64,000 nucleotides of DNA from Nocardia shimofusensis NBRC 100134 (lineage in GTDB: Bacteria > Actinomycetota > Actinomycetes > Mycobacteriales > Mycobacteriaceae): the NCBI RefSeq assembly GCF_001613125.1, contig NZ_BDBT01000006.1, positions 1 through 64,000 of the forward strand, in the 5' to 3' direction. A program made the position numbers and the translations under genes. The notes under the pieces are model-generated. The model was not told the DNA's origin and made no database searches. It saw nothing but the letters and a program-made list of their open reading frames with translations. Within the stretch, counting starts at the first letter, position 1, and each line of letters starts with the position of its first letter. This document shows positions 26,369 to 50,958 of the stretch, one piece after another.

Positions 26369-26397
26369 GATAGTTAGGTTTGACTCACCTAACTATC
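26369..26397. promoter_or_regulatory. IdeR/DtxR-type iron box with extended palindrome
   Basis: TTAGGTTTGACTCACCTAA (26374-26392) resembles the IdeR consensus TTAGGTTAGGCTAACCTAA. It sits inside a perfect 11-base inverted repeat, GATAGTTAGGT and ACCTAACTATC. It lies about 130 bases upstream of the secreted protein at 26524, predicting that this gene is repressed when iron is plentiful. Confidence 0.75.
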
Positions 26398-26523
26398 GCG
26401 GTTTATGGTTCTCACGCCGCGCGGTCCTCGAAAGTCCGAGGCGCGCAACGGCGGGGAGGCGTGGACGTCTCGCGCGAGTCCGGCCAGGCCGGACCTCCCC
26501 CGGGTCGAGTCGAGAAGGGTGTC

Positions 26524-27006
26524 ATGTCCAAAATCCTCAAGGTTGTCATCGCCGGCGCTTTCGCCGCACTGCTCGCGTTGGGTCTGGCCTCGCCCGCTTC
26601 GGCCGATGTCTCGATCCGTAACTCCACGGCGAACGACCTCTACGTCAGCTCCGATACCCCCGGCCTCGACCAGATCGAGCGCCAGTTCGCGGCCTTCTGG
26701 AACCCGAACATCGGCATCGACCCCAAGATCGAGGTCAGCTACAACGGCCCTGGCGCCCGTGCCGCGCTCGAGCAGGTCATGCAGAACAGCCGGACCATGG
26801 ACTTCTTCTCCATCCAGGGCCGCGCGCTCGGTCCGGTGAACATCTCCGGTAGCCAGATGTCCGTCGCGGTGCAGGGTCTGATGGCGGGCTTCCCGGCCAC
26901 CACCACCGTCTACCACTGGATCCGCGAAGGCGGCCTGTGGAAGTTCGACTGGAAGTCGATCTGCCAGGAGATGCAGTGCGCCGGTAACCCGAGCTTCGGT
27001 TACTGA
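26524..27006 (+). CDS. Small secreted protein behind an iron box
   Basis: 160 residues from ATG 26524, with GAGAAGGG 4 bases upstream. A Sec signal peptide (MSKILKVVIAGAFAALLALG) ends at SPASA, leaving a mature protein of about 133 residues with two Cys in CQEMQC. The mature part has a helix-strand layout (LDQIERQFAAFWNPN, FSIQGRALGPVNISG, WKFDWKSICQE) reminiscent of MTB12-like antigens, but I do not recognise the family with confidence. An IdeR-type box upstream and siderophore transport genes downstream suggest a role outside the cell under iron limitation, perhaps iron or siderophore binding. A strong hairpin follows. Confidence 0.7.
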   Translation: MSKILKVVIAGAFAALLALGLASPASADVSIRNSTANDLYVSSDTPGLDQIERQFAAFWNPNIGIDPKIEVSYNGPGARAALEQVMQNSRTMDFFSIQGRALGPVNISGSQMSVAVQGLMAGFPATTTVYHWIREGGLWKFDWKSICQEMQCAGNPSFGY

Positions 27007-27021
27007 CGATCGGATGTCCCG

Positions 27022-27059
27022 ACTGGAGCGATCCCCGGTGTTCCGGGGGTCGCTCCAGT
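27022..27059 (+). terminator. Hairpin after the secreted protein gene
   Basis: A 17-bp stem starting ACTGGAGCGATCCCCGG, with one G-T pair and a 4-base loop, begins 15 bases after the stop. No U-run. Confidence 0.65.
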
Positions 27060-27100
27060 GCTGCGAAGGGGCCGCAGTGCTGCGGCGCGCCGCCGAGGGA

Positions 27101-27130: not shown

Positions 27131-27141
27131 CGGACTGAGCG

Positions 27142-27879
27142 ATGATCAGCGTCAAGGGCGTTTCCAAGAGCTTCGGTGACAAAGCCGCGGTGCGGGCGGT
27201 CGATTTCACGGCCGAGGACGGGGCGATCACTTATCTGCTCGGACCCAACGGTGCGGGCAAGACCACCCTCATGCGCATGATCGCCGGTCTGATCACCCCG
27301 GACTCCGGGACGATCACCATCAACGGCAGGCCGTTGCGGAAACTGGAGAACACCATGGGCGAGGTCGGTTTCAGCCTCGGTGCGTTCTCCCGCAACCCGA
27401 AACACACCGCCGGGCAACATCTGCGCTGGCAGGCTCGCCTCGGCGGGATCTCCGTCAGCGCGGTCGCCCCGGCGCTCGAGCGCGTCGGACTGGCGAGCGT
27501 GGCCGAGCGCCCGGTCGGCAAGTTCTCCTATGGCATGTTGCAGCGCCTCGGCATCGCCTCGGCATTGCTGGGCGATCCGCGCACCGTCGTTCTCGACGAG
27601 CCGGCCAACGGCCTCGATGTCGAGGGCACGCTGTGGTTGCGCGAACTGCTCACCGGTCTCGCCGCCGAGGGCACATGCGTGATGGTGGCCTCCCACGACC
27701 TCACCGAAGTGGAGATCACCGCCACCTGGATCACCGTGATGGGCAAGGGCGAGGTCCTCTCCGACGCCAGTCGTGACGACACCGTCGCGCGCGGCAGCGG
27801 GCCGCGCCTGCTCGAGTCGGCCTATCTCGAGATCACCGGAAACAGCGTCGAATACGCCGCGAAAGGGGGAGTGCGGTGA
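27142..27879 (+). CDS. ABC transporter ATP-binding protein (ABC-2 type)
   Basis: 245 residues. Walker A is LLGPNGAGKTTLM near residues 33-45, the Q-loop is shifted (MGEVGFSLGAFSRNPKH, with no clear Gln), and Walker B is TVVLDEPANGLD with the D-loop. The H-loop His is in VMVASHDLTEVE. The signature motif is unusual: FSYGMLQRLGIA instead of LSGGQ, a variant seen in bacitracin/BcrA-type exporters. These ATPases drive export of peptides, lipids or drugs. Its stop overlaps the permease gene by 4 bases. It lies between the iron-regulated secreted protein and irtA, so siderophore or lipid export is possible but unproven. Confidence 0.88.
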   Translation: MISVKGVSKSFGDKAAVRAVDFTAEDGAITYLLGPNGAGKTTLMRMIAGLITPDSGTITINGRPLRKLENTMGEVGFSLGAFSRNPKHTAGQHLRWQARLGGISVSAVAPALERVGLASVAERPVGKFSYGMLQRLGIASALLGDPRTVVLDEPANGLDVEGTLWLRELLTGLAAEGTCVMVASHDLTEVEITATWITVMGKGEVLSDASRDDTVARGSGPRLLESAYLEITGNSVEYAAKGGVR

Positions 27880-28670
27880 GCACCGCGACCTACCTGATCA
27901 GGTCGGTGCGCAGCGAATGCGCGAAACTGTCCTGGCGCAATTCCTTGTGGTACACGATCGTGCCCGCGGCCGTGCTGATCCCGATCCTGCTGAACTACGG
28001 GATCGCGATGGCGGTGCAGACGAACAAGTTCGACGGCGCGGGCGGCATGGACACCGACAACGCCGCCTACTGGATCATCGTGTTCTCCACCTTCATCCTG
28101 ATGGCGGGTGGGGTCTCCTCGCTGTGCTCGGAGTTCAAGGACAACACGATCCAGATCGTCTTCGGCATCCAGACGCGCCGCTGGCTGCTGCCCGTCGCCA
28201 AGCTGATCGTGTTCGGTGCGATCGCGGCACTCACCGCTTGGGTGACGACTTTCGTGATCCTGTGGGGCTTCCCGCGTCTGCTGCCCGATGTCTGGGGCCG
28301 CGTGGACGTGTTCTCCTCCGAGGGACTGCGGCTGTGGTTCGGCATCCCGCTGCTGACCGTGCTGGTCTGCGCCCTGGGCCTCGGCCTGGCCGCGCTGGTG
28401 CCGAAACCGGGCTTCGTGGTGATGATCGTGCTGCTGTGGAAGTTCGGCGTGGAAGTGTTCGTCAACTTCATCCCCGGCGACGTGGGCATGCTGGTGCAAC
28501 GCCTGATGCCGTTCAAGAACGGCGAACTCGGCGTCGGCCAGCTGGCGACGTTCAAGAGCTTGTTCGGCGGAGAGAACGGCTCGCTGCTGTATTTCGGCGC
28601 GCTGTGCCTGGCGCTGTTCGTGGCGGGCGTGGTTCGCCTGTCGCTGACCGATCTGAAGAACGACAACTGA
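27876..28670 (+). CDS. ABC-2 family permease
   Basis: 264 residues starting at a GTGA overlap with the ATPase gene. Six hydrophobic segments can be seen, among them AYWIIVFSTFILMAGGVSSL, LIVFGAIAALTAWVTTFVIL and FVVMIVLLWKFGVEVFV. The N-terminal VRSECAKLSWRNSLWYTIVP is the usual short cytoplasmic start of actinobacterial ABC-2 permeases (coupling helix ECAKL). With the preceding ATPase it forms a complete half-transporter pair that probably works as an exporter. The transported molecule is unknown. It ends 46 bases before an iron box that belongs to irtA. Confidence 0.85.
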   Translation: MSTATYLIRSVRSECAKLSWRNSLWYTIVPAAVLIPILLNYGIAMAVQTNKFDGAGGMDTDNAAYWIIVFSTFILMAGGVSSLCSEFKDNTIQIVFGIQTRRWLLPVAKLIVFGAIAALTAWVTTFVILWGFPRLLPDVWGRVDVFSSEGLRLWFGIPLLTVLVCALGLGLAALVPKPGFVVMIVLLWKFGVEVFVNFIPGDVGMLVQRLMPFKNGELGVGQLATFKSLFGGENGSLLYFGALCLALFVAGVVRLSLTDLKNDN

Positions 28671-28716
28671 CCCGTGCCGTACCGATTCGGCGGCACGACG
28701 GTCGCGGCGCTCGAAG

Positions 28717-28735: not shown

Positions 28736-28760
28736 GTCGCACGCGAGAGGACATGGCTGA

Positions 28761-31478
28761 ATGGCTCGCAGAGGATTCACCGGCGCGATGCTTCGTGCCT
28801 ACGGCATCCAGTATCACACCGCCACGGTCGTCGGTTCCGAACAGACGACGCCCCGGATGCGCCGGGTCTGGCTGACCGCGCCGACGCTGTTCGCCGAGAT
28901 CGACATCGAACCCACGGCCTGGCTGCGGATCTGGTTCCCGGCCGCGGACGGCTCGGACAAGGAGTTCCAGCGCGGCTACACCATCGCCGAAGTGGACTCC
29001 GAGACCGGCGATTTCGCCGTGGACTTCGTGCTGCACGAACCGGCGGGTCCGGCCTCGGCCTGGGCGCAACGGGCGCAGGCGGGCGAAGAGATCGAGGTGG
29101 CCTCGTTCGGCTCGCGGGGTTTCGCGATCCCCGAGGACCTGCCCGCGGGCTATCTGCTGATCGGCGATTCCGCCTCGATCCCGGCGATCAACTCCATCCT
29201 GCGCGCGCTCCCGCAGCACGTGTCGGTCGAGGTGTACCTCGAACAGCACCACGGCGACGACCAGCTCATCCCGCTGGCCGAACATCCGCTCGCGCGCGTG
29301 CACTGGGTGCCACGGACCTCCGAGCAGGCGATGGCCGCCGCGCTCGAGGCCCGCGACTGGTCGAACTGGTACTGCTGGGCCGGACCGGAATCCAAGGCGC
29401 TCAAACACATCCGGACCAGGGTCAAGGACGAATTCGGCTTCCCCAAGTCGGAGTTCTACCAGCAGGCGTACTGGGCGATCGGCCGTGCCATGGGCAAGGA
29501 GCGCGACGGCTCCGAGCTCGAGGACGCAGGGACCGACACCACCGAAGCCGCAGGGGCCGACACCACCGAGGCCGCAGGGACCACGGCCACCACCGACGTG
29601 CCCGAAGTGACGGCGGCGACCGAGAAGGTCGTCGAGCCGCCCGCGACTCCCGTCGCGCGGCCCGCCGCGGCGACCGTCGCGCCCACCAGGGGCAACTGGC
29701 GTTCGCAGGCGGGCAGCAAGCTCTTCGCCGAGCTGAAGCCGAAATTCGTGGTCGCGGGCGTACTCCAGGTACTGCTGACCCTGCTCCAGCTGGCGCCGTA
29801 CGTGCTGCTCGTGGAGCTGGCCCGGCATCTGCTGAAGGGCAGCGAGAACTCCACGTTGTGGGCGCTGGGCCTGTGGGCCGTGGGTCTGCTCGCGCTGAGC
29901 GCGGTGCTCGAGGCGGCGTTGCAACTGTGGCTGCACACCGTCGACGCCCGGTTCAGTCGTGACCTGCGCGGTCGCCTGCTGAGCAAACTGGCTCGCCTGC
30001 CGCTGGGCTGGTTCACCGCGCGCACCTCGGGCCAGATCGACAAGCTGGTCACCGGTGACACGCTGTCGCTGCACTACCTGGTGACGCACGCGGTGACCGA
30101 CGCGGTGGCCGCCGTCGTCGCGCCCATCGCCGTGCTGGTCTACCTGATCTGGGTGGACTGGCGACTGGGTCTGCTGCTGCTGGTGCCGATTCTCGCCTAC
30201 ATCATCACGATGATGACGATGATGGCCACCTCCGGTCCCAAGACGATGCAGTCGCAGCGGTGGGCCGAGCGGATGAACGGCGAGGCCACCTCCTACATGG
30301 ACGGCCAGCCGGTGATCCGGGTGTTCGGCGGTTCGGCCGCCTCGCCGTTCCGGCGCAGCCTCGACGACTACATCGCCTTCCTCGACGGCTGGCAGCGGCC
30401 CTTCGTCGGCAAGAAGGCGACGATGGACCTGATCACCCGGCCGGTCACCTTCCTGTGGCTGATCCTGCTCGCGGGCACCGCGCTGGTGGCGGGCGGCGGT
30501 CTCGATCCGGTGGATCTGCTGCCGTTCCTGTTCCTGGGCACCACCTTCGGATCACGGCTGCTCGGCATCGGCTACGGCCTGATGGGCCTGCGTGAGGGCC
30601 GCGTGGCCGCGCAGAACATCCAGGCCGCGCTGGACGAGAACGAACTCGACGTCCGCACCGGCGGCACGCGGTTCGAGGAGGCCGACGGCCATGTCGAATT
30701 CGACGGCGTCACCTTCGGATACCGCGCCGAGGCGCCGGTGGTCCAGGACGTCTCGCTGACCTTGGCTCCCGGCACGGTGACCGCCCTGGTCGGCCCTTCC
30801 GGCGCGGGCAAGTCGACGCTGGCCGCGCTGCTGGCGCGCTTCCACGATCCGCACGCCGGTGCGATCCGGATCGGCGGGCGCGACATCACGACCTTCACCC
30901 CCGACGAGCTGTACGCCAGGATCGGGTTCGTCTTCCAGGACGCCCAGCTGGTGCACGGTACCGTGCGGGAGAACATCGCCCTGGCCGTCCCGGACGCCTC
31001 CGAGGAGGCCGTCGTTCAGGCGGCGAAGGACGCCCGGCTGCACGAACGCATCCTGGCGCTGCCCCAGGGCTACGACACCGTGCTCGGCGCGAATGTCACG
31101 CTCTCCGGCGGTGAGCGGCAACGACTCACCATCGCGCGGGCGCTGCTCGCCGACACGCCGGTGCTGATCCTGGACGAGGCCACCGCCTTCGCCGACCCGG
31201 AGTCGGAATTCCTGGTGCAGCAGGCGATCAACCGCCTGACCGCCGGACGCACCGTGCTGGTGATCGCGCACCGGCTGCGCACCATCGCCGGCGCCGACCG
31301 CATCGTCGTGCTCGAGGGCGGCCGGGTCACCCAGACGGGCACGCACGACGACCTGATCGCCGAGCGAGGCCGCTACCGGCAGCTGTGGGAGGCGAGCGTG
31401 GACAGCGCGGCGAGCGTGGAGACAGCCGGTGCGGGCGTCGGCGGCGGTATCGGTGTGCATTCGAAGGAGAACGTCTGA
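28761..31478 (+). CDS. irtA: Siderophore importer IrtA: FAD reductase domain fused to ABC half-transporter
   Basis: 905 residues, close to mycobacterial IrtA. Residues 1-250 form a siderophore-interacting FAD domain: [11 protein letters not shown] holds the RxYT flavin motif, and [20 protein letters not shown] and [15 protein letters not shown] are the typical late segments. It would reduce ferric siderophore inside the cell. A linker with 8-residue repeats (near 256-271) leads to six membrane helices. The ATPase has Walker [19 protein letters not shown], signature [17 protein letters not shown] and Walker [17 protein letters not shown]. IrtA pairs with IrtB. Despite the exporter fold, IrtAB imports mycobactins. 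It follows an iron box and overlaps irtB by 1 base. Confidence 0.93.
29526..29573 (+). repeat. 24-bp in-frame tandem repeat in irtA linker
   Basis: Two 24-base copies starting GCAGGGACCGACACC, plus a partial third, encode A-G-[TA]-D-T-T-E-A. They lie in the linker between reductase and membrane domains. Confidence 0.8.
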
Positions 31479-33244
31479 TGTTCCGGACTGTGCTGAGCCT
31501 GCTGCCTCCCGCGCAGCGTGGCCGTGTCGCGGGCTATCTCGCGATCGAGGTCCTCTCGACGATCGTGCGGGCCGTCGCCGTCGTGCTGGTGGTTCCGCTG
31601 GTGACAGAGCTTTTCGGCGATGATCCCGGCGCCGCTTGGCGCTGGGTCGGCCTGCTGACCCTGGCGGTGGCGATCGGCTGGGTGGTCGACTCGATCGGCT
31701 ACCGGATCGGCTTCGATCTCGGCTTCGGCATCCTGGACAACGCGCAGCGTTCGGTGGCCGCTCAGGTGGCGCGCATCCCGTTGCGCTGGTTCACCGAAGA
31801 CAACTCGGCGACCGCGCGGCGCGCCATCGCCGGCACCGGTCCCGACCTCGTCGGGCTGGTCGGCTACCTGCTGACGCCGCTGATCCAGGGCATCCTGCTG
31901 CCGATCGCCATCGCGGTGGCCCTGGTGCCGATCGCCTGGCAGCTCGGCCTGGTCGCGCTGATCGCGGTGCCGCTGCTGCTGGGCGCGCTGTGGGGCGCCA
32001 ACCGGATCAGTCAGCAGGCCGACCGGGTGGCCGCCGCCGCCAACGGCGAGCTCACCGCGCGCATCATCGAATTCGCCCGCACCCAGGCCGCGTTGCGCGC
32101 TGCCCGCCGGGTGGAACCGGCGAGCAGTCAGGCCGGTGCGGCGCTGGCCGCCCAGCACGGCGCCACCCTGCGTCTGCTGCTGCTGAGCATCCCGGGGCAA
32201 CTGTTGTTCACCGTGGCCGCGCAGATCGCCCTGCTGGCGATGGCCGGGACCATCGCGTGGCTGGCGGTGCGCGGCACGATCGGGATTCCCGAGGCGATCG
32301 CCCTGATCGTGGTCGTGGTGCGGTTCGTGGAGCCGTTCACCTCGATTCGCGATCTGGCTCCGGCCATGGAGACCAGCCGCTCCACCCTGAAGGACATCCG
32401 CACCGTCATCGACACGCCGGGCCCGGAGTCCTCGGGTCGGGCCGGGGAACTCACCCCGGCCGCCGCCACGGTGCAATTGCGTTCCGTGCGTTTCGGTTAC
32501 GGCGACGACGAGAGCGAACCACCGGTGCTCGACGGTCTGGACCTGGAATTCCGAGCCGGTGAGGTCACCGCCATCGTCGGCCCGTCCGGCGCGGGCAAGA
32601 GCACGGTCCTCGGCCTGGTGGCCGGGCTCGAGCAGCCGAATGCGGGCAGCGTGGTCGTCGGCGGCGTCGATCTGGGCGAGCTGGACTCGGCGCATCGCTC
32701 GACGGTGAGCAGCATGGTCTTCCAACAGCCGTACCTGTTCGCCGGAACCATCAGGGAGAACGTGCTGTCGGGCAATCCCGAGGCAGGCGAGGACGAACTG
32801 GCCGCGGCGCTGCGCCTGGCGCGCGTCGAGGAGTTCGCCCGGCGGCTGCCCGACGGCGTGGATACCGTGGTCGGGGAAGCGGGAACGGCGTTGTCCGGCG
32901 GTGAGCGCCAGCGGGTTTCGATCGCTCGCGCGCTGCTCAAGCCGTCGTCGGTGTTGCTCGTCGACGAGGGCACCAGCGCGCTGGACGCGGAGAACGAGGC
33001 CGCGGTCGTGACGGCCATCGGCGAGGATCCCCGGCAGCGCACCCGCATCGTGGTGACGCATCGGCTGTCCACCATCGCCGGCGCGGACCGCGTGCTGTTC
33101 CTCGACGGCGGTCGCGTGGTCGAGGACGGCACCGTCGCGGAGTTGCTGGCCGCGGACGGACGCTTCGCGCGGTTCTGGCGGCATCAGAACGATGCCGCCG
33201 GATGGCGCATCACCTCGGAAACCGTTTCGGTCGGCGGAAACTGA
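31478..33244 (+). CDS. irtB: Siderophore importer half-transporter IrtB
   Basis: 588 residues from ATG 31478, overlapping the irtA stop as TGATG. The start [20 protein letters not shown] leads into six membrane helices. The ATPase domain has Walker [22 protein letters not shown]-loop VFQQPYLFAGTIRENVLSGN, signature [17 protein letters not shown] and Walker B VLLVDEGTSALD. Both ATP sites of the IrtAB pair therefore look functional. Its partner IrtA holds the flavin reductase. A hairpin at 33259-33286 closes the operon before the three-iron-box region of the biosynthesis genes. Confidence 0.92.
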   Translation: MFRTVLSLLPPAQRGRVAGYLAIEVLSTIVRAVAVVLVVPLVTELFGDDPGAAWRWVGLLTLAVAIGWVVDSIGYRIGFDLGFGILDNAQRSVAAQVARIPLRWFTEDNSATARRAIAGTGPDLVGLVGYLLTPLIQGILLPIAIAVALVPIAWQLGLVALIAVPLLLGALWGANRISQQADRVAAAANGELTARIIEFARTQAALRAARRVEPASSQAGAALAAQHGATLRLLLLSIPGQLLFTVAAQIALLAMAGTIAWLAVRGTIGIPEAIALIVVVVRFVEPFTSIRDLAPAMETSRSTLKDIRTVIDTPGPESSGRAGELTPAAATVQLRSVRFGYGDDESEPPVLDGLDLEFRAGEVTAIVGPSGAGKSTVLGLVAGLEQPNAGSVVVGGVDLGELDSAHRSTVSSMVFQQPYLFAGTIRENVLSGNPEAGEDELAAALRLARVEEFARRLPDGVDTVVGEAGTALSGGERQRVSIARALLKPSSVLLVDEGTSALDAENEAAVVTAIGEDPRQRTRIVVTHRLSTIAGADRVLFLDGGRVVEDGTVAELLAADGRFARFWRHQNDAAGWRITSETVSVGGN

Positions 33245-33380: not shown

Positions 33381-33399
33381 TGAGGTTAGTGTAACCTAA
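33381..33399. promoter_or_regulatory. IdeR/DtxR-type iron box 1 of NRPS promoter
   Basis: TGAGGTTAGTGTAACCTAA matches 16 of 19 positions of the IdeR consensus, the best match by count in the window. It lies about 140 bases before the NRPS start. Confidence 0.8.
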
Positions 33400-33472
33400 C
33401 CAATCGGAGACGATGTGGCGTTGTCCGCAGCTCGACGCTCTGCCTCGAAGGGGCGGGCCGATATCGGGGGCC

Positions 33473-33488
33473 GGTTAGCATTACCTAA
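33473..33488. promoter_or_regulatory. IdeR/DtxR-type iron box 2 of NRPS promoter (partial match)
   Basis: GGTTAGCATTACCTAA matches 13 of the last 16 consensus positions; its left end is degenerate. It lies 51 bases before the NRPS start. Confidence 0.55.
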
Positions 33489-33492
33489 TTTC

Positions 33493-33511
33493 TTAGGGTA
33501 CGCTAACTTCG
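33493..33511. promoter_or_regulatory. IdeR/DtxR-type iron box 3 of NRPS promoter
   Basis: TTAGGGTACGCTAACTTCG matches 14 of 19 consensus positions. It begins 5 bases after box 2 and 28 bases before the start codon, where bound protein would block transcription. Confidence 0.6.
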
Positions 33512-33539: not shown

Positions 33540-36500
33540 ATGGTGGTTGCTCGTCCCGAGGCGAGGGCGGATATCGATATCCGAGCAGAAGTCGGATCAG
33601 TTCTGGGTATCGCGCCGGAGTCGCTCGACCTGGACGGCGACCTGATCACGCAGGGCCTGGATTCGCTGCGGATGATGCGGCTGGCGGGCCAGTGGCGTAA
33701 GCGCGGGCACGACATCGATTTCGCCCGGCTGTCCGGGGCGCCGACGATCCGGGCCTGGACGGCCTTGCTCCTCGGCGACGCCGCCGATGGTGCGGACTCG
33801 GATCGGGGCGCGAGGTCCGCGGAGCCCGCCGAGCGGATCGGCGATCTCACCAGCGACCTCGGCGCCGCGTTCCCGCTGGCCCCGATGCAGCACGCGTACT
33901 GGATCGGGCGCTCCGACAGCCACGCCTACGGCGACGTCGCGGCCCACCTCTACATCGAGTTCGACGGCCACGACTTGGAGCCGGAGCGCTTCCGCGACGC
34001 GGTCACGAAACTTCTGCTGCGCCATCCCATGCTGCGGATTCGGGTATTGCCCGACGGCACCCAGCTGGTCGGCGCACCGCATCCGGAGGCCATCGCGATC
34101 CACGACCTGCGCGAGCAGTCGCCGGAATCGGCCGCCGACATCCTGGCCCGCCGCCGCGAACAGGGAACCCACCGCGCGCTGCCGATCGAGGACGGCGCGG
34201 TCGTCCGCGTGGAACTGAGCCTGCTGCCCGGCGGCGGCAGCCGGGTCCACCTCGATGTGGACATGATCGCCGCCGACGCCATGAGCTACCGCGTGCTGGT
34301 CGACGACCTGGCCCGCATCTACCGCGGCGAGCATCTGCCCGAGCTGCGTGTGCACTTCCCCGCACTCTCTGCCGAGCGCACCGGCCGCACCCCCGACGAA
34401 GCGGATATCGCCTGGTGGCGGGAACGGATCGCGGATCTGCCCGGCCCGCCGGAACTTCCGGTGCGTGAGGCCGCCGCGCGCGGCGAGGCGCCCCCTGCGA
34501 CCGTGCGCCTGCACCATGCCATCGACGCCACCGACCGCAAGCGTCTCGAGGAGTACGCCCACAAGCGTGGTGTCACTCCGGCCGCCGCGGTGGCCGCGGT
34601 CTTCGCCGAGGCTGTCGGCGCGTACTCCGCCGGTCCCCGCTTCCTGCTGACGGTGCCGCTGTTCGACCGCGACCCGGTGCACCCCGATGTCGAGAAGGTG
34701 GTCGGTGACTTCACCTCCTCGCTCGTCATCGATGTCGACCTGCGCGAGAACCTGACCCTCGCCGAGCGCGCCAGGGCGATGCGGGTGGCCATGCACGAGG
34801 CGGCCGCGCACGGCAGCTTCGGCGGCCTGGATGTACTGCGTGAACTGAGCAGGCAGCGGGGCGAACCCGTGGTGTCGCCGGTGGTGTTCACCAGCGCGCT
34901 CGGACTGGGCGAGCTGTTCTCCCCTGCGGTCACCGAGGTGTTCGGCGAGCCGTCGTGGATCGTCTCCCAGGGCCCGCAGGTGCTGCTCGACGCCCAGGTC
35001 ACCGAGCTCGCGGGCGGTCTGCTGCTCAACTGGGACGTGCGGGCCTCCGATCTCGAACTCGACACCGCCCGTGAGATGTTCGCCTACTACGTTCGGCTGC
35101 TCGATCTGCTGATGGCCGACGAGTGGGATCGGCCCGCCCCGGACCCGGTCTCCGACGAGGTCCGCGCCCAGCGGCTTTCGGTCGAGCGACCGCTGCCCGG
35201 CACCGAGTTCTTCGACGGCACACTGCACGGACACTTCCTCGCCTCCGCCGAACAGCGCGCCGAGGCTCCGGCGATCATCAGCGACGCGCGCACCTGGAGC
35301 CATGCCGAACTGGCGCAGGAGGCCCGCCGGGTGGCCGGTGCGCTGCTGGCCGCGGGCGTGGGCGCCGGTGACACCGTGATCGTCGATCTGGCCAAGGGCG
35401 GCGACCAGATCGTGGCCGCCCTCGGCGTGCTCACCGCGGGCGCGGCGTATGTGCCGATGGCGCCCACCCAGCCGCGGGCCCGCCGCGAGCGGATCGCCTC
35501 GGTGGCGACCCCGGCCGCGATCCTCACCGATCACCCGCAGCGCTGGGCGGATTCGGCCGTCCCGGTGCTCGGGCCGGCGGACGCGCGCACCGCCGCGCCC
35601 GCCGAGCCGGTGGCGGTGTCCACCGACGCACTGGCCTACGTGCTGTTCACCTCCGGCTCCACCGGTCTGCCCAAGGGCGTGCAGGTGCCGCACCGCGCGG
35701 CCGTGGCGACTCTCACCGATCTGGTGCGCCGTTACGAACTGGGCGCGAACGATCGCAGCCTGCAGGTCTCCGCGCTGGAGTTCGACCTGTCGGTCTTCGA
35801 CATCTTCGGTCTGCTCGCCGTGGGCGGCGCGGTGGTGGTTCCCATCGACGACCCGGACGCCAAGGTCGACACCTGGACCCGTCTGCTGCGCGACGCTCAG
35901 GTGACGGTGCTGAACTGCGTTCCCTCGGTCCTCGGCATGATCCTCGACATCGCCCCGCTGCCGGCCGCGCTGCGGGTGATCATCATGGGTGGCGACAAAG
36001 TCGACGTCTCGCTGCTGCACCGCGTCGGCGCGCAACTGCCCGGCTGCCGCGTCGCCGGTCTGGGCGGCACCACCGAGACCGCCATCCATTCCACGGTGTG
36101 CGAGGCGCCGGACGTGCCCGCGGGCGCGACCTTCGTGCCCTACGGCGTGCCGCTGGACGGCGTGCGCTGCCGGGTCGTCGACGCCGTCGGCCGGGACCGG
36201 CCCGACCGCGTCCCCGGCGAGCTGTGGATCGGCGGCGCGGGTGTGGCCGACGGCTACCGCGGCGATCCGGAGCGCACCGCGGACCGGTTCGTGACCGTCG
36301 AGGGCGTGCGCTGGTACCGCACCGGCGACATGGTGCGCTACCTGCCCGGCGGGTTCCTGGACTTCCTCGGCCGCGCCGACCACATGGTCAAGATCCGTGG
36401 TTACCGGGTGGAACTCGGTGAGGTGGAAGCGGGTCTGCTCGGTCTGGACGCGGTCACCGGGGCGGTGGCCTGGTCCGACGGCAAGGATCTGCGCGCCGCG

Positions 36501-43415: not shown

Positions 43416-43556
43416 CCGTCCCGCCTCGAAAACAAGCGATCACCGCGGTGTGCCCGGCCTGCCGGGGCCGGAATGACCCACCGCGCGACCACCGGTTGAG
43501 CGACCACTCGGTACCGCTCGACCGCTCTTTATCCGAATTACCTGATGGGGCTGTCC

Positions 43557-45098
43557 GTGTCACAAGAAATTGTCTTCCCGTGGGGGCAGGCGTCGAAGTT
43601 CTCCCGCCCTGGCGACGGCTGGGCGGAAGTCGGCGCCGGCTTGACCCGCGTCGCCGCCGTAGTCGATGGCCGCCATCACGGATTCCCCCTGCCCGCGGGT
43701 GATCCGGCCACGGTGCTGGCCGCCGTGGCGGACGTGCTGGGCCCGGAACAGATTCCCGCCGCCGGAATCGGTGCGGAGGCCGCGCTCGAGCAGGTGGCCG
43801 ACCTGGTCGCCCGCTACGGCCTCGACCTGACCCACAAGCAGTGCGCGGCGCACCTGCAGCCGCCCGCGCTGACCGTGTCCGTGGTCGCCGACGCGCTGGC
43901 CAGCGCCTCCAACGCGTCGCTGGACACCTACGACTCCGGCCCGGCGACGCTGGGCATCGAGCAGTGGACCATCAAGTCGCTGGCCCGGCTGGCCGGTCTC
44001 ACCGACGCCGCGGGCGGCGTGTTCGGCCCCGGCGGTTCCTACTCGAACCTGCTGGCGTTGCTGGTCGCCCGTGACTACGGTGCGGCGCGGCGCGGCGTGG
44101 ATGTCCGCCAGAACGGGGTCAGCGCGCTGCCGCGACCGGTGGTGTTCTGCTCGCGGGTGGCGCACTTCTCCGTGCATCGCGCCTGCGCCGCACTGGGATT
44201 GGGCGAGGCCGCGGCCATCGCGGTGCCGGTCGACTCCGACCACCGGATGATCCCCGAGGCGCTCGAGGAACTGCTGGAGCGCTACAGCGCCGATCACACC
44301 CCGATCGCGATCGTGGCGACCGCGGGCACCACCGATTTCGGCAGCATCGATCCGCTGCCGGCTATCGCCGAGATCGCCGCCCGGCACGACGTGTGGATGC
44401 ACGTCGACGCGGCCTACGGCTTCGGTTCGCTGTTCTCCGGCAACCTTTCGCATCTGCTGACCGGCGTCGAACGCGCCGACTCGATCACCCTGGATCTGCA
44501 CAAGGTCGGCTGGCAGCCGGCCGCGGCCAGCGTGCTGCTGCTGGCCGACCAGCAGCGCTTCGCCTCGCTGAACCGCTCGGTGGCCTACCTCAATCCCGAC
44601 GACGACGTGGAGGCCGGCTACGGCGGACTGCTCGGCCAGACCCTGCAGACCACCCGCCGCCCCGACGTGCTCAAAGTCGCCGCCACCTTCCTGGCCTACG
44701 GCCGCGAAGGACTCGGCGAGATGCTCGACACCTGCCACGAATTGGCCCTGCACGCCGAGCGCCGGATCGCCACCGAACTGCAGCTGGACCTGGTCGCCCC
44801 GGTCACCCTGACCACGGTGGTGTTCCGTTACCGCTGCGAAGACCTGGATCTGGATCAGGTCAACGGCGAAGTGCGCCGCCGTCTGATCGATTCGGGCAAG
44901 GCGCTCATCGGTCGCACCCAGGTGCGCGTCCACGGCGAGGGTGAGCCGCGCACCTGCCTCAAGCTCACGCTGCTCAATCCCGAGGCGACCGAGAAGGACA
45001 TCGACGCGCTGTTCGACGACATCCTGCGCATCGCCCTGGAAGTGGAATCAGAAGGTCTGGAACACAGTGTCGAGGAAATGGTGAAGGTCCATGAGTGA
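43557..45098 (+). CDS. PLP-dependent amino-acid decarboxylase (lysine/diaminobutyrate type)
   Basis: 513 residues from GTG 43557, preferred over ATG 43545 because GGGG lies upstream of it. It belongs to the group II decarboxylases such as DesA and RhbB. The PLP Lys is in SITLDLHKVGWQPAAAS (about K316). MHVDAAYGFGSL binds the cofactor, FGPGGSYSNLLALLVARDYG holds the phosphate, and VATAGTTDFGSIDPL is conserved. It should make cadaverine from lysine, or diaminopropane from diaminobutyrate. Cadaverine fits a desferrioxamine-like unit but is not proved. The last 8 bases overlap the hydroxylase start. It begins 141 bases after the condensation gene, with no iron box in the gap. Confidence 0.9.
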   Translation: MSQEIVFPWGQASKFSRPGDGWAEVGAGLTRVAAVVDGRHHGFPLPAGDPATVLAAVADVLGPEQIPAAGIGAEAALEQVADLVARYGLDLTHKQCAAHLQPPALTVSVVADALASASNASLDTYDSGPATLGIEQWTIKSLARLAGLTDAAGGVFGPGGSYSNLLALLVARDYGAARRGVDVRQNGVSALPRPVVFCSRVAHFSVHRACAALGLGEAAAIAVPVDSDHRMIPEALEELLERYSADHTPIAIVATAGTTDFGSIDPLPAIAEIAARHDVWMHVDAAYGFGSLFSGNLSHLLTGVERADSITLDLHKVGWQPAAASVLLLADQQRFASLNRSVAYLNPDDDVEAGYGGLLGQTLQTTRRPDVLKVAATFLAYGREGLGEMLDTCHELALHAERRIATELQLDLVAPVTLTTVVFRYRCEDLDLDQVNGEVRRRLIDSGKALIGRTQVRVHGEGEPRTCLKLTLLNPEATEKDIDALFDDILRIALEVESEGLEHSVEEMVKVHE

Positions 45099-46458
45099 CA
45101 TCGAATCGGTAGACATTCTCGCGATCGGCTGCGGTCCGTTCAATCTCGGTCTGGCGGCGCTGGCGTCGACGGTCGAGGACGCCGACGTACTCGTGGTGGA
45201 CTCGGCCGAGGAGTTCCGCTGGCATCCCGGCCTGATGTTCGACGAGGCCAAGCTCCAGGTGAGCTTCCTGTCCGACCTGGTCTCGCTGGTGGACCCCCGC
45301 CACCCGCTGTCGTTCCTGGCCTACCTGGCCGATGTCGACCGGCTCTACCCGTTCCTGGTGCGCGAGGACTTCTTCCCCACCCGGCGCGAGTACGAGGCCT
45401 ATCTGCTGTGGGTTGTCGCGCAACTGGACTCGCTGCGCTGGCGCACCACCGTCGAGCAGGTGCGCTGGAACGACGAGCTGGAGTTGTTCGAGGTCTCGGT
45501 GACTTCTGGAAGCACAGCCTCGGTGGCTTCTGGAGGCGCAGCCTCGGTAACTTCTGGGGGCACGGCCTCGGTGATCCACGCGAGGCACGTGGTGGTCGGC
45601 ATCGGCACCGAGCCGGTGATCCCGCCCGCGCTGACCACCGACTCGCCCGCCCTGATCCACAGCTCGCAGTACCTGTTCCACTCCGACACCGCGCACGCCG
45701 CGGACTCGGTGACGGTGATCGGTTCCGGCCAGTCCGGCGCCGAGATCGTCATCGACCTGCTCGAGGAGAACCTGCGCGGCGGCCCGGCGGTCACCTGGTG
45801 GACTCGCACCCCGTGGTTCGCGCCGCTGGACTTCACCAAGCTCTCGCTCGAGATGACGACCCCGGCGTACATGGACTACTTCCATTCGCTGCCCGAGGAC
45901 GCCCGTGATCGGGTGCGCGCGCAGCACTGGCAGTTCCACAAGGGCATCTCCACCGAGACGCTGGCGCGGCTGCACGACCTGCTCTACCGCAGGCAGTTGC
46001 TGGAGAAACTGCAGCCGGTACGGTTGCGCCAGAGCGTCGCGGTCGAGCGCATCGACACCCTCGGCGACGGCCGGCTGCGGGTCCGCGGTCAGCACCTGGA
46101 CACCGGGAAGGCACTGGCGCACACCGCCGATCTGGTCATCGCCTGCACCGGCTACCAGCAGCGCAAGCCGGACTTCCTCGCGCCGGTGGTCGATCGGCTG
46201 CATCGGGATTCGCGGGACCGGCTGGTCGTCGAGTCGAATCATTCGGTGGCCGCCGACGGCGCGCTGGCGGACCGGCTCTTCGTCGTCAATGCCGAGGCGC
46301 ACGCGGTCGGTGTGTCCGCACCCAACCTCGACATCGGCGCCATGCGCAACGCCAAGATCCTCAACACGGTGCTCGGTCGCGAGGTCTATCGCCTGCAGCG
46401 CAACACCGCGTTCACCAGCTTCGCCGCCGACGGCGAAGACGTCGTGGACGAGCAGTAG
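45091..46458 (+). CDS. Siderophore lysine/cadaverine N-hydroxylase (IucD/SidA family)
   Basis: 455 residues. It is a flavin N-hydroxylase: the FAD motif is ILAIGCGPFNLGLAALAS (GCGPFNLG, residues 13-20), the NADPH motif is VIGSGQSGAEIVIDLLEE near 209, and the C-terminal VIACTGYQQRKPDFLAPVVD is the ATGY-like block. FRWHPGLMFDEAKLQVSFLS is the usual substrate-side segment. It should hydroxylate the free primary amine of cadaverine, which the neighbouring decarboxylase would supply, or of lysine. Three 8-residue repeats are inserted at about residues 136-159, where IucD-like enzymes usually have a loop. The stop is followed by an iron box. Confidence 0.92.
   Translation: MSDIESVDILAIGCGPFNLGLAALASTVEDADVLVVDSAEEFRWHPGLMFDEAKLQVSFLSDLVSLVDPRHPLSFLAYLADVDRLYPFLVREDFFPTRREYEAYLLWVVAQLDSLRWRTTVEQVRWNDELELFEVSVTSGSTASVASGGAASVTSGGTASVIHARHVVVGIGTEPVIPPALTTDSPALIHSSQYLFHSDTAHAADSVTVIGSGQSGAEIVIDLLEENLRGGPAVTWWTRTPWFAPLDFTKLSLEMTTPAYMDYFHSLPEDARDRVRAQHWQFHKGISTETLARLHDLLYRRQLLEKLQPVRLRQSVAVERIDTLGDGRLRVRGQHLDTGKALAHTADLVIACTGYQQRKPDFLAPVVDRLHRDSRDRLVVESNHSVAADGALADRLFVVNAEAHAVGVSAPNLDIGAMRNAKILNTVLGREVYRLQRNTAFTSFAADGEDVVDEQ
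45496..45567 (+). repeat. 24-bp in-frame tandem repeat in N-hydroxylase gene
   Basis: Three 24-base copies starting TCGGTGACTTCTGGA encode S-V-[TA]-S-G-[SG]-[TA]-A. They form an extra Ser/Gly-rich loop in the enzyme. Confidence 0.85.
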
Positions 46459-46462
46459 TTAG

Positions 46463-46481
46463 TTAGGTTTGCCTTGCCTGA
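46463..46481. promoter_or_regulatory. IdeR/DtxR-type iron box upstream of the acyl-chain genes
   Basis: TTAGGTTTGCCTTGCCTGA matches 14 of 19 consensus positions. It begins 4 bases after the N-hydroxylase stop and ends 89 bases before the ACP gene, suggesting a second iron-controlled transcript. Confidence 0.65.
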
Positions 46482-46570: not shown

Positions 46571-46822
46571 ATGTCCGACCATATCCGTGAAACGCTCGAC
46601 AGCATCCTCGAAGAGGATCTCGACCTGCCGCTCGCGCAACTCACTCGCTCGTCGCTGCTGATCGAGGACCTCGGTCTGGATTCCGTCGCGTTCGCCATCG
46701 GCGTGGTCGCCATCGAGGAGCGCCTGGGTGTGCAGCTGAGCGAGCGCGAGATGTCCGAGGCTGCCTCGGTCGGCGACCTCGAGGATCTCATCCGCTCGAA
46801 GGCAGGCAGCGTCGCGAAGTGA
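46571..46822 (+). CDS. Acyl carrier protein (MbtL-like)
   Basis: 83 residues, with GAAGGAG 8 bases upstream. It has the three-helix carrier fold and the phosphopantetheine Ser38 in [14 protein letters not shown]. The tail ends KAGSVAK. In mycobactin synthesis the similar MbtL carries a fatty acid activated by MbtM, desaturated by MbtN and transferred to hydroxylysine. Here the same neighbours follow in order, so this protein probably carries the lipid chain of the siderophore. Its stop overlaps the next gene by 4 bases. Confidence 0.9.
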
Positions 46823-47988
46823 CGTCCTACGACGAGTTGCTCGACACGGTCTTCGACGATCGCGTCGTGGCATGGACCGAGCAGGCCGAGCGGGAGGAGA
46901 AGTTCCCCAGGGAACTGCTCGAGCACCTGGGCGCGGCGGGCGTGTTCGCCCGTAAGTGGTCCGACCGCAAGCTCACCGACCTGGGTATGCACTTCGCCCT
47001 GGCGCTGCGGCTCGGATCGTTGCAGTCGGCGGGCATCGCCGTCGGTGTGAGCCTGCACGATTCGGCCATCGCCATGCTGCGTCGCTTCGCGCGCAACGAC
47101 TTCCAGCGCACGCTGGCCGAGCAGGCGATCAGCGTGGAGAAGGTGCTCTGCATCGCGGCCTCGGAGGAATCCGGTGGCTCGGATCTGCAGAATGTCGCGA
47201 CCACCCTCGAGGCCGAGAACGGCGGCTACCGGGTGCGGGGCGTGAAGAAATTCGTCTCGCTCTCGCCGATCGCGGACTACATCATGGTCGTCTGCCGGCA
47301 TGTCGACGGTGCGGCCACCGCCGACTCGGGCGCGAGCAGCGCTGTCGCGCACGGCAATGTGGCGCTGGTGATCGTGCCGACCTCGCAGGTCGTCATCGGA
47401 ACGCCCTACGCCAAGCTCGGCGCGGGACCGCTGGACACCGCCCCGGTCACCATCGACACCTGGGTGCCCGAGGAGAACCTGCTGGCGCGTCCGGGCACCG
47501 GCCTGGCCGTGATCAGCTGGGGCCTGGCGCACGAACGCTATTCGGTCGCGGGCCAGATTGCGGCCAACTGCGAGGCCATGATCGGCGTGACGCTGGCGCG
47601 GATGATGCACCGCAGCCAGTTCGGCAAGCGACTGTTCGACCACCAGGCGCTGCGCCTGCGCGTCGCGGACCTGCAGTCGCGGGTGGACCTGTTGCGCTAC
47701 GGCCTGGCAGGCGTCGCCGCGGAGGGCAAGATCAACCTGCGCACCGCCGCCTCGCTCAAGGCGACCGCCGCCAACCTCGGCGTCGAGGTGGCCTCGGAAT
47801 GCCTGCACATCTTCGGCGGCTCAGGCTATCTCGAGTCCGAGACCCCGGTGGGGCGCTGGTGGCGCGACATGAAGCTGGCCCGTGTCGGCGGCGGCACCGA
47901 CGAGGTGCTGTGGGAGCTGGTCGCGGCGGGCATGAAGCCCGACAACGAACGTTACGAGAAGCTCTACAAGAGTCAGGTGCCACAGTGA
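46819..47988 (+). CDS. Acyl-CoA dehydrogenase-like acyl-ACP desaturating enzyme (MbtN-like)
   Basis: 389 residues from GTG 46819, overlapping the ACP gene. It is a flavin acyl-CoA dehydrogenase: [20 protein letters not shown] binds FAD near the acyl group, [20 protein letters not shown] is the family central block, and [20 protein letters not shown] followed by [15 protein letters not shown] gives the C-terminal domain. In mycobacteria the similar MbtN (FadE14) puts a cis double bond in the ACP-bound chain. The catalytic Glu is not assigned by eye. It is coupled with GTGA overlaps to genes on both sides. Confidence 0.88.
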
Positions 47989-49250
47989 CCAGTCCTGTCG
48001 AACTCGCCCCGCCCGACCACACCTATCTGCATCTGGACACCAAGACCAGTCCGATGCACTGGGCGATGGTCATGGTCCTCGCCGAAGACGGCGAGCACCT
48101 GTCGATCGACGATCTGCGCGCGCGGGTGCGCGAGCGCGGCACGCTGTTCGACCTGTTCCGGCTCGGTATCCGCGAAGGCCGCTGGCGCAGGCCGCGGGTC
48201 GAGCTGGCCGCCGAGGTCGACGTGCAGGCCCAGGTCGCGCATGCCGAGTACACCGACGACGCCGACCTGTTCCGGCGCATCGCCGTCCTGCACGAACAGC
48301 CGCTGCCCCGCCCGGCGCCGATGTGGCACATCACGCTGTTCACCCCGCACGCGTCCGGCGCCCAGCACATCGTGCTGCGCGTGCACCACAGCGTCTCCGA
48401 CGGCATCGCGGGCGCGGCCTTCGCCGCCCTGGTCGCCGACGGGACGCCCGAGGAACTCACCGAGTTCGAGCGTTTCGCCACCAGCCCGCGCTACCGGATC
48501 ACCGAGATCGATCCCGAACAGTTCGCGGCGTCCAAGGCTGCCTTCGGCGAGCAGTGGACCGCCGGTCAGGCCGGGCGTGGCTGGCCGAAACTCACCAAGA
48601 GCGGTCGCCGCGAAGTCGCCATGACCGGGGTATCCACCCGCGATCTGCGCCGCGCCGCCAAGCACAACGGCGCGACCGTGCACGAGTTCGTGCTCGCCGC
48701 GGTCGGCCGGGCGCTGAACCTGACCCCGCCGCCCGGCAAAGCGGGCGGCGAGATCCTGCGGGTGACCCTGCCGGTGACCCACGACGAGGCGTTCCGGCAC
48801 ACCGGCAACGCCGTGCTGGTCTCGCTGCTCAATCTGCCCGGCGCCGAATCGGATCTGGCCGCGCAGATCGAACGCGCCCGCGCCGAGCTGACGCTGATCG
48901 AGGAACGCAAGCCGCACCTGTCGCTGGCCGCCACCGACAACGGCCCCAAGGCGCCGTGGCCGCTGCAGCGTGCCATCACCATCGCCTCGATGGCCCGGAT
49001 GGCCCCCGACATCCACATCGGCATCAATCCCGGCTTCTCCCGGATCAGGGCCGTGCTGGGCAAGAAGATCACCGAGCTGACACCGCTGTCCCCGCTGGTC
49101 GGCTACTCGTTCTCGGTGACCTGCCTGATCCTGGGCAACCGCACCTCCTTCGGCGTCGTCACCGACCCGGTCGCGCTGTCGGACGGATACGCCGCCACCT
49201 TCGTGGAGACCTTCGGTCGTGTGCTGGCCGAGGCCGCGCCGACGTCCTGA
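47985..49250 (+). CDS. WS/DGAT-type acyltransferase
   Basis: 421 residues from GTG 47985, overlapping the dehydrogenase gene. It is a wax-ester-synthase/DGAT-type acyltransferase with the active site [20 protein letters not shown] (HHxxxDG). [20 protein letters not shown] is the usual family start and [20 protein letters not shown] is part of the C-terminal DUF1298 domain. Such enzymes normally acylate alcohols or diacylglycerol. In this operon I infer it moves the desaturated acyl chain from the ACP to the N-hydroxy group of the siderophore, a role MbtK (GNAT) fills in mycobactin. The GNAT fused to the NRPS could instead do this. Confidence 0.85.
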
Positions 49251-49320
49251 ATCACGGCACCGCGCACACCGATCCCGCAGTACCGCAGCCTTCACCGCAG
49301 ACTGAGATGAGAAAGTACCG

Positions 49321-50958
49321 ATGAGCAGAATTACCGACCTGTTGTTCCGGCAGCCCGCGCCCGAGGACACCGGTCTGTGGAGCGGTGAGAGTTCGTCGGA
49401 GCTGTCGTTCCTGTCCTGGGCGCAGGTGCGCTCGGCGGCGGGCGCGGCCGCCGCGGGCCTGGCCGGCGCCGGGGTCGGGCCCGGTGATTCGGTGGCGATC
49501 CTCGCCGGTGGCGCCGAGGACGTCACCGTGACGGTGCAGGCGACCTGGATGCGCGGCGCGGCGTTCACGATGCTGCACCAGCCCACTCCGCGCACCAACC
49601 TCGAGACCTGGCTCGCCGACTGCCGCGAGGTGGTGCGGATGCTCGGCGCGCGGGCGGTCGCGGTGGGACAGCCCTTCTTCGACGCCGTGCGCGAACTCGA
49701 TCTCGGCGCGCCGATCGTCTCGATCGACGAGATCCGCGCCGGGACGAGCCGGATCGAGGCCGTCGACACCGACGAGGACGATCTCGCGGTGCTGCAGCTG
49801 ACCTCCGGCACCACCGGTGTCCCGAAGGCGGTCGCCATCACCTATCGCAACCTGTGGGCGAATCAGCAGGCCATCGTGCAGGCCGCGGACTTCCGCACCG
49901 ACGACGTCGCGGTCAGCTGGCTGCCGCTCTACCACGACATGGGCATGATCGGCACCCTGATGACCCCGATGTTCGCCCGGACGACCACGGTGATCACCAC
50001 GCCGATGGCCTTCCTGAAGAACCCGCTGTCCTGGGCCGAGCTGTTCACCCGCTTCGGCGGAACCTTCACCGCCGCCCCGAACTTCGCCTACTCCGTGCTC
50101 GCCCGCCGCCTGCGCCGGGCGCCCGACGGCGCTTACGACCTGTCGAAGCTGCGCGTCGCGGTCAACGGCGCGGAGGCCATCGACACCGGGGTGGTCGAGG
50201 AATTCCTCACCGAGGGCGCGCGTTTCGGGGTCAAGCCGGAAGCCATGATGCCCGCCTACGGCATGGCCGAGACCACGCTGGCGGTGTCGTTCAGCGCCCA
50301 CGACCAGCGCTACACCGTCGACGTCATCGACGCCGACCGCGCCGAGCGCGACAACATCGCCGCGCGCGAGGACATCGGGCGCGAACGGACGGTCGTGCGG
50401 CTCGGCCCGCCGGTCCCCGGCCTCGAGATGCGGGTCGTCGACGAGGAGGGCAACCCCCTGCCCGCCGACCACATCGGCACCTTCCAGGTGCGCGGCGAGG
50501 CGGTCACCCGCCGCTACCTCGGCCCGGACGGTTTCGTCGCGGCCGTCGACGCCGACGGCTGGCTCGACACCGGCGACCTCGGCTACCTGACCGCCGACGG
50601 CGAAGCGGTGGTGAGCGGTCGCAAGAAGGACATCATCATCGTCGCGGGCCGCAACATCTCCCCGGTCGTGGTGGAGCGCGCCGCGGGCGTGATCCCGGGC
50701 GTGCGCGCGGGCGGCGTGGCGGCGCTCGCGGTCAAACTGCCGTCGATGGCGCGCGAGGGCATCGCCGTCATCGCCGAATCCGACGCGGCGGGCGATGCGG
50801 AGGAGTCCGAGCGCATCCGCAAGGAGGTCGCCCGGGCGGTCTATGACGATGTGGGGATCGCCCCCGCTGTGGTGACCATCGTCGGCAAGGGAGCGCTGCC
50901 CAAGACGCCCTCGGGCAAGCTGCGCCGCGCGGCGTCGGCGAGCCTGATCACGGCCTGA
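49321..50958 (+). CDS. Long-chain fatty acyl-AMP ligase (MbtM/FadD33-like)
   Basis: 545 residues; GATGAGAAAG lies upstream of ATG 49321. It is an adenylate-forming ligase: LTSGTTGVPKAVAITYRNL is the ATP motif, PAYGMAETTLAVSF the adenine block, and GWLDTGDLGYLTADGEAVV the ribose-binding block. SWLPLYHDMGMIGTLMTPMF is the fatty acyl-AMP ligase hallmark that distinguishes it from acyl-CoA synthetases. It probably loads a fatty acid onto the ACP at 46571. It is the last gene of the iron-box-controlled set, begins 70 bases after the acyltransferase, and ends in a region of remnants. Confidence 0.92.
   Translation: MSRITDLLFRQPAPEDTGLWSGESSSELSFLSWAQVRSAAGAAAAGLAGAGVGPGDSVAILAGGAEDVTVTVQATWMRGAAFTMLHQPTPRTNLETWLADCREVVRMLGARAVAVGQPFFDAVRELDLGAPIVSIDEIRAGTSRIEAVDTDEDDLAVLQLTSGTTGVPKAVAITYRNLWANQQAIVQAADFRTDDVAVSWLPLYHDMGMIGTLMTPMFARTTTVITTPMAFLKNPLSWAELFTRFGGTFTAAPNFAYSVLARRLRRAPDGAYDLSKLRVAVNGAEAIDTGVVEEFLTEGARFGVKPEAMMPAYGMAETTLAVSFSAHDQRYTVDVIDADRAERDNIAAREDIGRERTVVRLGPPVPGLEMRVVDEEGNPLPADHIGTFQVRGEAVTRRYLGPDGFVAAVDADGWLDTGDLGYLTADGEAVVSGRKKDIIIVAGRNISPVVVERAAGVIPGVRAGGVAALAVKLPSMAREGIAVIAESDAAGDAEESERIRKEVARAVYDDVGIAPAVVTIVGKGALPKTPSGKLRRAASASLITA

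Follow-up and report, generated by a model that had tools for sequence, protein, structure and literature searches.

A predicted nocardichelin-type siderophore locus in Nocardia shimofusensis NBRC 100134

Genes and iron boxes of the locus

The 64,000-nucleotide window analysed here (contig NZ_BDBT01000006.1, positions 1 to 64,000, of Nocardia shimofusensis NBRC 100134) contains a siderophore locus that combines a non-ribosomal peptide synthetase (NRPS) with an NRPS-independent siderophore (NIS) synthetase. The list of open reading frames (ORFs), codon-position G+C and family scans together delimit a single row of plus-strand genes at 26524-50958, read here as one iron-box-controlled locus. The family scans applied Pfam and NCBIfam to the window's proteins, and the IrtB-like, stand-alone condensation and wax synthase/diacylglycerol acyltransferase (WS/DGAT) genes were taken from the ORF list and these scans. 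An earlier note on this DNA, made from the sequence alone, had listed a cyclisation-adenylation (Cy-A) NRPS, an IucA/IucC synthetase, a decarboxylase, an N-hydroxylase, an acyl carrier protein (ACP), a fatty acyl-AMP ligase (FAAL), an acyl-CoA dehydrogenase and an acyltransferase. All of these parts were recovered, with matches well above chance. Four more went unmentioned: the NRPS carries a fused GNAT domain, and the row also includes an amidase resembling DesG, a condensation enzyme that stands alone and an IrtAB-like importer.

The NRPS (33540..37652, plus strand, as are all the genes below; 1370 aa) runs from an aryl carrier protein (ArCP) through Cy and A domains to a peptidyl carrier protein (PCP), matching PP-binding, Condensation, AMP-binding (E=6e-72) and PP-binding families in turn, and ends in the GNAT domain (37104..37538; PF13523, NRPS residues 1189-1333). 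Its carrier serines are intact and its Cy motif is DMIAAD (DxxxxD). The A-domain code, at ten positions mapped by motif anchors, is DLFNIMLIHK; it is identical in a Nocardia carnea locus (L043), and the pattern DLFN[IV][MLT]LIHK fits 28 of 32 related loci, which is every one with a readable A domain. The GNAT domain is of DesC/NcdE type and is predicted to transfer succinyl to N-hydroxycadaverine: its closest solved relative is NcdE (PDB 9nij, 275 bits), with the desferrioxamine protein DfoC at 79 bits and MbtK at 26, and of the genome's PF13523 matches only this one passes the cut-off, a second falling below it. The stand-alone condensation-family enzyme (41937..43415; PF00668, motif HHLAVDDT), predicted to free the aryl-oxazoline by transferring it to an amine, retains HHxxxD in 32/32 relatives.

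Between these two lie the NIS synthetase and the amidase. The former (37649..39514; IucA/IucC, E=2e-75) is of DesD/NcdF type, with NcdF its best PDB match (9nom, 1001 bits) and DesD at 581 bits, and is the sole IucA/IucC match in the genome. The latter (39511..41940; PF01804, 1e-149) is a DesG-like, penicillin-amidase-family N-terminal nucleophile (Ntn) hydrolase, in which Ser211, within SNAW, corresponds to the start point of the beta chains in solved relatives. Its nearest PDB entries are an unnamed penicillin-acylase-family protein (35sz), then glutaryl-cephalosporanic acid acylase and D-succinylase, which agrees with the desuccinylase function that PMC12161575 proposes for DesG. Two diamine enzymes follow. 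The pyridoxal phosphate-dependent decarboxylase (43545..45098; PF00282, 4e-56), predicted to convert lysine to cadaverine, matches diaminobutyrate decarboxylase (2qma, 254 bits) and the desferrioxamine decarboxylase (5o5c, 246 bits). The DesB-type N-hydroxylase (45091..46458; PF13434, 4e-98), with cadaverine as its predicted substrate, matches 6xbb ('Monooxigenase', 301 bits), the desferrioxamine enzyme (5o8p, 296 bits), a putrescine hydroxylase (279 bits) and MbtG (133 bits).

The row ends in a lipid branch. An ACP, MbtL-like by position (46571..46822; PF00550, and NCBIfam PRK05883 over cut-off), precedes an MbtN-like acyl-ACP dehydrogenase predicted to yield a 2-enoyl chain (46819..47988; NCBIfam MbtN, 5.7e-183, at 608 bits below the cut-off of 700). 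These are followed by a WS/DGAT-fold acyltransferase with the motif HHSVSDG (47985..49250; TIGR02946, 1e-30, below cut-off), the predicted former of a lipid hydroxamate, and by an MbtM-like FAAL (49321..50958; PRK07768 over cut-off, MbtM 1.6e-91 and below its cut-off). No polyketide synthase (PKS) domain was found by Pfam or NCBIfam in the scanned proteins of 26.4-51.0 kb.

Iron boxes were sought with a 19-base IdeR/DmdR-type consensus. Two palindromic sites, 26374..26392, 5' of a secreted-protein gene, and 33381, have no more than three mismatches, each on both strands, at an expectation of 0.00 in 100 shuffles. Hence a chance origin can be ruled out for these two, and the control by iron boxes that the earlier note proposed is borne out. 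The second lies in a promoter region (33381..33511) with further boxes at 33470 and 33493 (five mismatches each, against three at 33381). A degenerate pattern gave 10 matches where 0.76 were expected by chance, among them a box in the gap between the N-hydroxylase and ACP genes (46463..46481, four mismatches to the strict consensus). This internal box is weakly supported, having a counterpart, at five mismatches, in just 2 of 17 relatives. Among the 26 relatives tested, 20 have a box of no more than five mismatches within 500 nt 5' of the aryl carrier match, the six without a good one being L053, L056, L057, L058, L059 and L062; random 500-nt stretches of the relatives' loci have one in 17 of 520 cases, some of which probably overlap real boxes.

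Published relatives and the predicted product

The closest point of reference is N. carnea NBRC 14403. Over 184 compared residues the PDB entries for NcdE (9nij-9nim) are 100% identical to its locus, and by this identity that locus can very probably be equated with the published ncd cluster. The two loci share the order IrtB, ArCP-Cy-A-PCP-GNAT, NIS synthetase, amidase, condensation enzyme, decarboxylase, N-hydroxylase, ACP, MbtN-like enzyme, WS/DGAT-fold enzyme and FAAL, with 55-78% protein identity over the biosynthetic pieces. They differ at their edges: the secreted protein and a pair of ATP-binding cassette (ABC) genes lie upstream in the window but downstream of the FAAL gene in N. carnea, where, in addition, about 13 kb separate the condensation gene from a salicylate synthase; in the window genome none is linked.

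Such clusters have recently been described. The title of Fisk et al. 2025 (ACS Chem Biol; cited in PMC13036778) reports nocardichelin biosynthesis, and the available text of PMC12161575 (PLoS Biol 2025) presents a cluster of Gordonia rubripertincta CWB2 as consistent with it. As described there, that locus shares with the window an NRPS, des-type genes, a desG homologue and further acyltransferases, but differs in encoding a salicylate synthase. The same source calls nocardichelins the sole family of NIS/NRPS hybrid siderophores identified to date, while what is available of PMC13036778 also names petrobactin as such a hybrid. The question left by the earlier note, whether the nocardichelin cluster had already been described, can thus be answered affirmatively from that title and the PMC12161575 proposal; an undescribed type of hybrid cluster was rejected, as it was in print in 2025, and its discovery as a type is pre-empted by those papers. 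The present comparison places the window and 32 named loci in or near this small group of hybrid NRPS-NIS siderophores.

Formula arithmetic bears on the structure. The accessible part of PMC6467163 gives formulas for nocardichelins A and B and a third compound from a Gordonia, and C40H65N5O8, C38H61N5O8 and C42H69N5O8 equal a salicyl-serine-oxazoline, two N-hydroxycadaverines and succinate joined to C16:1, C14:1 and C18:1 acids, respectively. With C11-C19 acids and 0-2 unsaturations considered, an uncyclised, non-oxazoline form fitted none of the three. The one unsaturation that the formulas require in the acyl chain agrees with the MbtN-like dehydrogenase in the locus. The methyl option of the '(methyl)oxazoline' in the earlier note, from threonine, is rated less likely by this arithmetic than serine.

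At a probability of roughly 0.87, the locus is a nocardichelin-type cluster, predicted to make a lipidated salicyl-oxazoline/bis-hydroxamate siderophore by a hybrid NRPS-NIS route, which unites two kinds of biosynthesis normally found apart. The same product had been proposed in the earlier note, and colinearity with N. carnea, NcdE and NcdF as the closest solved proteins, the shared A code and the formula arithmetic all support it; the comparison turned up no known cluster that pairs these genes with a different product. From the gene content, order, motifs, iron boxes and relatives observed here, we infer a product, its substrates and an order of coupling as follows. The decarboxylase and then the N-hydroxylase would convert lysine to cadaverine and N-hydroxycadaverine, one molecule of which the GNAT domain would succinylate. 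The FAAL would load a fatty acid onto the ACP, the MbtN-like enzyme would introduce the 2-unsaturation, and the WS/DGAT-fold enzyme would probably move the chain to a second N-hydroxycadaverine, whose free amine the NIS enzyme would couple to the succinyl carboxylate of the first. The NRPS would build a 2-hydroxyphenyl-oxazoline from salicylate and, probably, serine, with the salicylate made and activated in trans by a synthase/ligase pair on another contig, C22, and the stand-alone condensation enzyme would release the aryl-oxazoline onto the remaining amine. Editing or recycling of acylated N-hydroxycadaverine would probably fall to the DesG-like amidase, and IrtAB would import and reduce the ferric complex.

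Several observations weigh against this assignment. Firstly, the window's contig carries no salicylate synthase: the genome's single such gene is on C22, where it adjoins a salicylate/dihydroxybenzoate-type ligase that scores 642 bits against a model cut-off of 724, and the ligase match on the window's own contig, beyond the window (C6:81293), is weaker still, at 222 bits. Secondly, the best NCBIfam models of the decarboxylase and the N-hydroxylase are a diaminobutyrate and a histamine enzyme, both far below cut-off, and the WS/DGAT-fold enzyme reaches 107 bits where its family cut-off is 310, its proposed role being reached by elimination. Thirdly, the A code does not discriminate between serine and threonine, and threonine fits the nocardichelin formulas if the acids are C13:1, C15:1 or C17:1, and only then. 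Fourthly, the reading of 'Ncd' as nocardichelin would follow from the title of Fisk et al. together with the sequence identity, and the NcdE chain in the PDB has 201 residues whereas the corresponding residues in N. carnea share one frame with the NRPS, meaning either that the domain was cut out or that the gene models differ.

Two simpler identities were rejected. Mycobactin (mbt-1/mbt-2) shares the salicyl ArCP-Cy-A-PCP logic, the ACP, FAAL and acyl-ACP dehydrogenase for the lipid, and IrtAB import. However, no PKS or second NRPS module was seen in the locus and its N-hydroxylase is nearer to diamine enzymes than to MbtG; a plain mycobactin cluster was dismissed on this diamine-type hydroxylase, the NcdE/DesC-like rather than MbtK-type GNAT and the absence of PKS domains from the scanned proteins. 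Desferrioxamine clusters (desABCD, desGH) share the decarboxylase, N-hydroxylase, GNAT, DesD-type NIS synthetase and DesG-like amidase, but the window adds aryl-oxazoline and lipid parts, and the genome has no separate DesH-type GNAT over cut-off. As its desABCD set is embedded in this larger locus, the window is partly des-like, and a plain desferrioxamine cluster was likewise rejected.

The products might nevertheless include desferrioxamines, either plain or acyl-capped, made alongside nocardichelins by DesABCD-type enzymes common to both. We consider this unlikely, though with a real chance of being correct: the only NIS enzyme in the genome resembles DesD, and G. rubripertincta CWB2, with its related locus, is reported in the available text of PMC12161575 to make desferrioxamines B and A1. 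No second, DesH-type acetyltransferase was seen beside the NRPS-fused GNAT among the genome's PF13523 matches over cut-off, but the same source allows another acyltransferase in place of DesH, so that this absence is not decisive.

It is improbable, at rather long odds, that the product is instead a congener, with a 5-methyl-oxazoline from threonine, a diamine other than cadaverine or another acyl chain. The uncertain specificity of the A code leaves room for it, as do the fit of the published formulas to threonine with odd-chain acids and the proximity of the decarboxylase and hydroxylase to diaminobutyrate, putrescine and histamine enzymes as well as to those acting on lysine and cadaverine. 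However, the A code is the same as that of N. carnea, even-chain fatty acids are the usual ones, and the desferrioxamine enzymes 5o5c and 5o8p are each among the two best PDB matches.

Salicylate supply and the acyl-transfer step

The window genome encodes four chorismate-binding enzymes, one of which, on C22, is a salicylate synthase over cut-off. About 10 kb past this synthase and its ligase lies a 2446-aa NRPS with a thioesterase. Iron boxes stand at C22 position 7317 (five mismatches), inside the longest ORF and 5' of where homology starts at 7447, and at 10477 (four mismatches), just 5' of the ligase; there is none near the start of the 2446-aa NRPS. In the available text of PMC7413640, nocobactin cluster II consists of nbtS, nbtT and sometimes nbtF, apart from cluster I. 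C22 has genes of all three kinds, a synthase, a ligase and an NRPS, and in this looks similar to cluster II. An isochorismate-synthase-like (DhbC/EntC) gene at G000:C1:324208-324993 hints at a further catecholate pathway.

In a sample of the genus, the condensation gene was present in 20 of 138 genomes, that of the window included. A salicylate synthase occurs in each of these 20 genomes, yet 132 of the whole 138 have one too, and hence its presence in the 20 says little. The synthase lies within 15 kb of the condensation gene in five of the 20 (N. carnea among them, at about 13 kb) and is not linked in 14, a count that leaves aside G310, whose second synthase match falls outside the matches listed; contig breaks in draft genomes may conceal some linkage. 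As linkage varies within the group, it was not treated as defining a nocardichelin cluster. The lack of linked salicylate genes is the notable difference of the window locus, and one common to other Nocardia.

The candidate for the transfer of the lipid, the WS/DGAT-fold enzyme (47985-49250), retains HHxxSDG in 24/24 loci where it was found, and no PDB sequence relative of it was detected at E<=0.001. Its AlphaFold model, made with 23 sequences, has a predicted local confidence (pLDDT) of 82; the best fold match in the PDB is the Marinobacter wax synthase (6chj, E 5e-23), then AzeD (8s6l) and the Acinetobacter wax synthase (7nxg), after which the list consists of many NRPS condensation-type domains. 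It became the candidate because, over the whole genome, there is just a single NIS gene and a single GNAT that passes the PF13523 cut-off, and the distance of that GNAT from MbtK assigns the lipid step to the WS/DGAT-fold enzyme; by this elimination it is probably the lipid transferase.

Combining these two strands, it is tentatively proposed, at somewhat less than an even chance, that in this and most cluster-bearing Nocardia the salicylate genes are those of the nocobactin system, and that the lipid hydroxamate is formed by an ACP-fed, WS/DGAT-fold N-acyltransferase replacing the GNAT of mycobactin. Were this so, the nocardichelin-type product would be a dependent siderophore, and two iron scavengers would share one salicylate pool. 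It is most improbable that the pathway is decayed or aryl-free and makes a lipidated bis-hydroxamate alone: although the only synthase and the best ligase match are on C22, the NRPS and condensation enzyme are intact in their motifs, that synthase/ligase pair has iron boxes of its own, and 14 of the 20 condensation-gene genomes, including this one, likewise lack a linked synthase. The gaps that can be tested are the enzyme forming the lipid hydroxamate, the role of the amidase, and whether one source of salicylate serves two siderophore systems.

Related loci, transport genes and flanking DNA

The related loci, 32 in Nocardia, Gordonia, Williamsia, Dietzia and Jongsikchunia, were obtained by searching named genomes with 19 aligned condensation proteins. 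A family-level scan found matches in 27 of 251 genomes, 21 of them at E<=1e-60; the other six, in long frames, resemble ordinary condensation domains. Loci were compared by their best non-overlapping tblastn matches, and genes were counted as present at E<=1e-10 and at least 38% identity across the 32, several of which are cut off at contig edges, which accounts for part of the absences. Both the amidase and the condensation genes are in 32/32 loci, but only the former count is informative, the condensation gene having been the bait.

The layouts fall along broad lines. Among 24 relatives examined, the GNAT is fused to the NRPS as in the window in 13 (ten Nocardia, the Gordonia metagenome-assembled genome L058, Dietzia and Williamsia), is a separate gene beside the NRPS in six, all Gordonia, and does not follow the best A-domain match in five. 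Loci L042, L044, L045 and L048 are of the N. cyriacigeorgica, N. amamiensis and N. puris type. Of the Gordonia/Jongsikchunia type (L053-L057), the two members read further (G038, G182) have the order GNAT-NIS-decarboxylase-hydroxylase-NRPS-amidase-condensation enzyme. One contig of N. cyriacigeorgica type (G144:C37, with L072 and L073) has two such genes: one is ArCP-Cy-GNAT and lacks A-PCP, the other is ArCP-Cy-A-PCP and 41-49% similar; this complete second gene is of another lineage, as if the NRPS were being replaced. Loci L037 and L063 have the GNAT, NIS and condensation enzymes but no NRPS beside the GNAT, and similar NRPSs are present elsewhere in their genomes, the best four matches being at 43-57% identity. 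As a separate observation, G000:C2 (~231000-275000) contains an open frame, 14,713 codons long, for an NRPS with numerous condensation domains, in a genome with 66 condensation-family matches in total.

Upstream of the NRPS in the window are the genes for transport. The IrtA-like importer (28761..31478) joins a siderophore-interacting reductase (SIP) domain to an ABC half-transporter and matches PDB 6tej (1178 bits, over nearly its full length) and the IrtA entry 9fxc (1167 bits). Its IrtB-like partner half-transporter (31478..33244; ABC_tran, 1.7e-29) is given the first ATG past the IrtA stop region as its start, the longest ORF beginning at 31385. Further 5' is a putative exporter, composed of an ABC ATPase (27142..27879; PF00005, E=3e-28) and a permease (27876..28670; PF12730, 1.6e-05, below cut-off), the ATPase gene of which is in 8/32 fetched loci.

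The first gene of the row encodes a secreted, Mtb12-like protein of 160 aa (26524..27006; a weak match to the NCBIfam WKL lipoprotein), also in 8/32 fetched loci and preceded in the window by the strong box at 26374. It has 41 homologues, 40 with PF26580, and the named ones are from Nocardia, Gordonia and Skermania. Its model has a pLDDT of 78 and no structure match in the PDB at E<=0.001, and therefore no function is proposed, although this putative extracellular protein may possibly handle the siderophore outside the cell.

Directly past the cluster, G+C falls to 0.59 at 52000-56000, and 56074-63340 contains a gene resembling the R subunit of type I restriction systems and a large gene resembling helicases, with matches in the defence library. 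By its composition and gene content, the region downstream of the cluster (52000-63340) looks like mobile or defence DNA.

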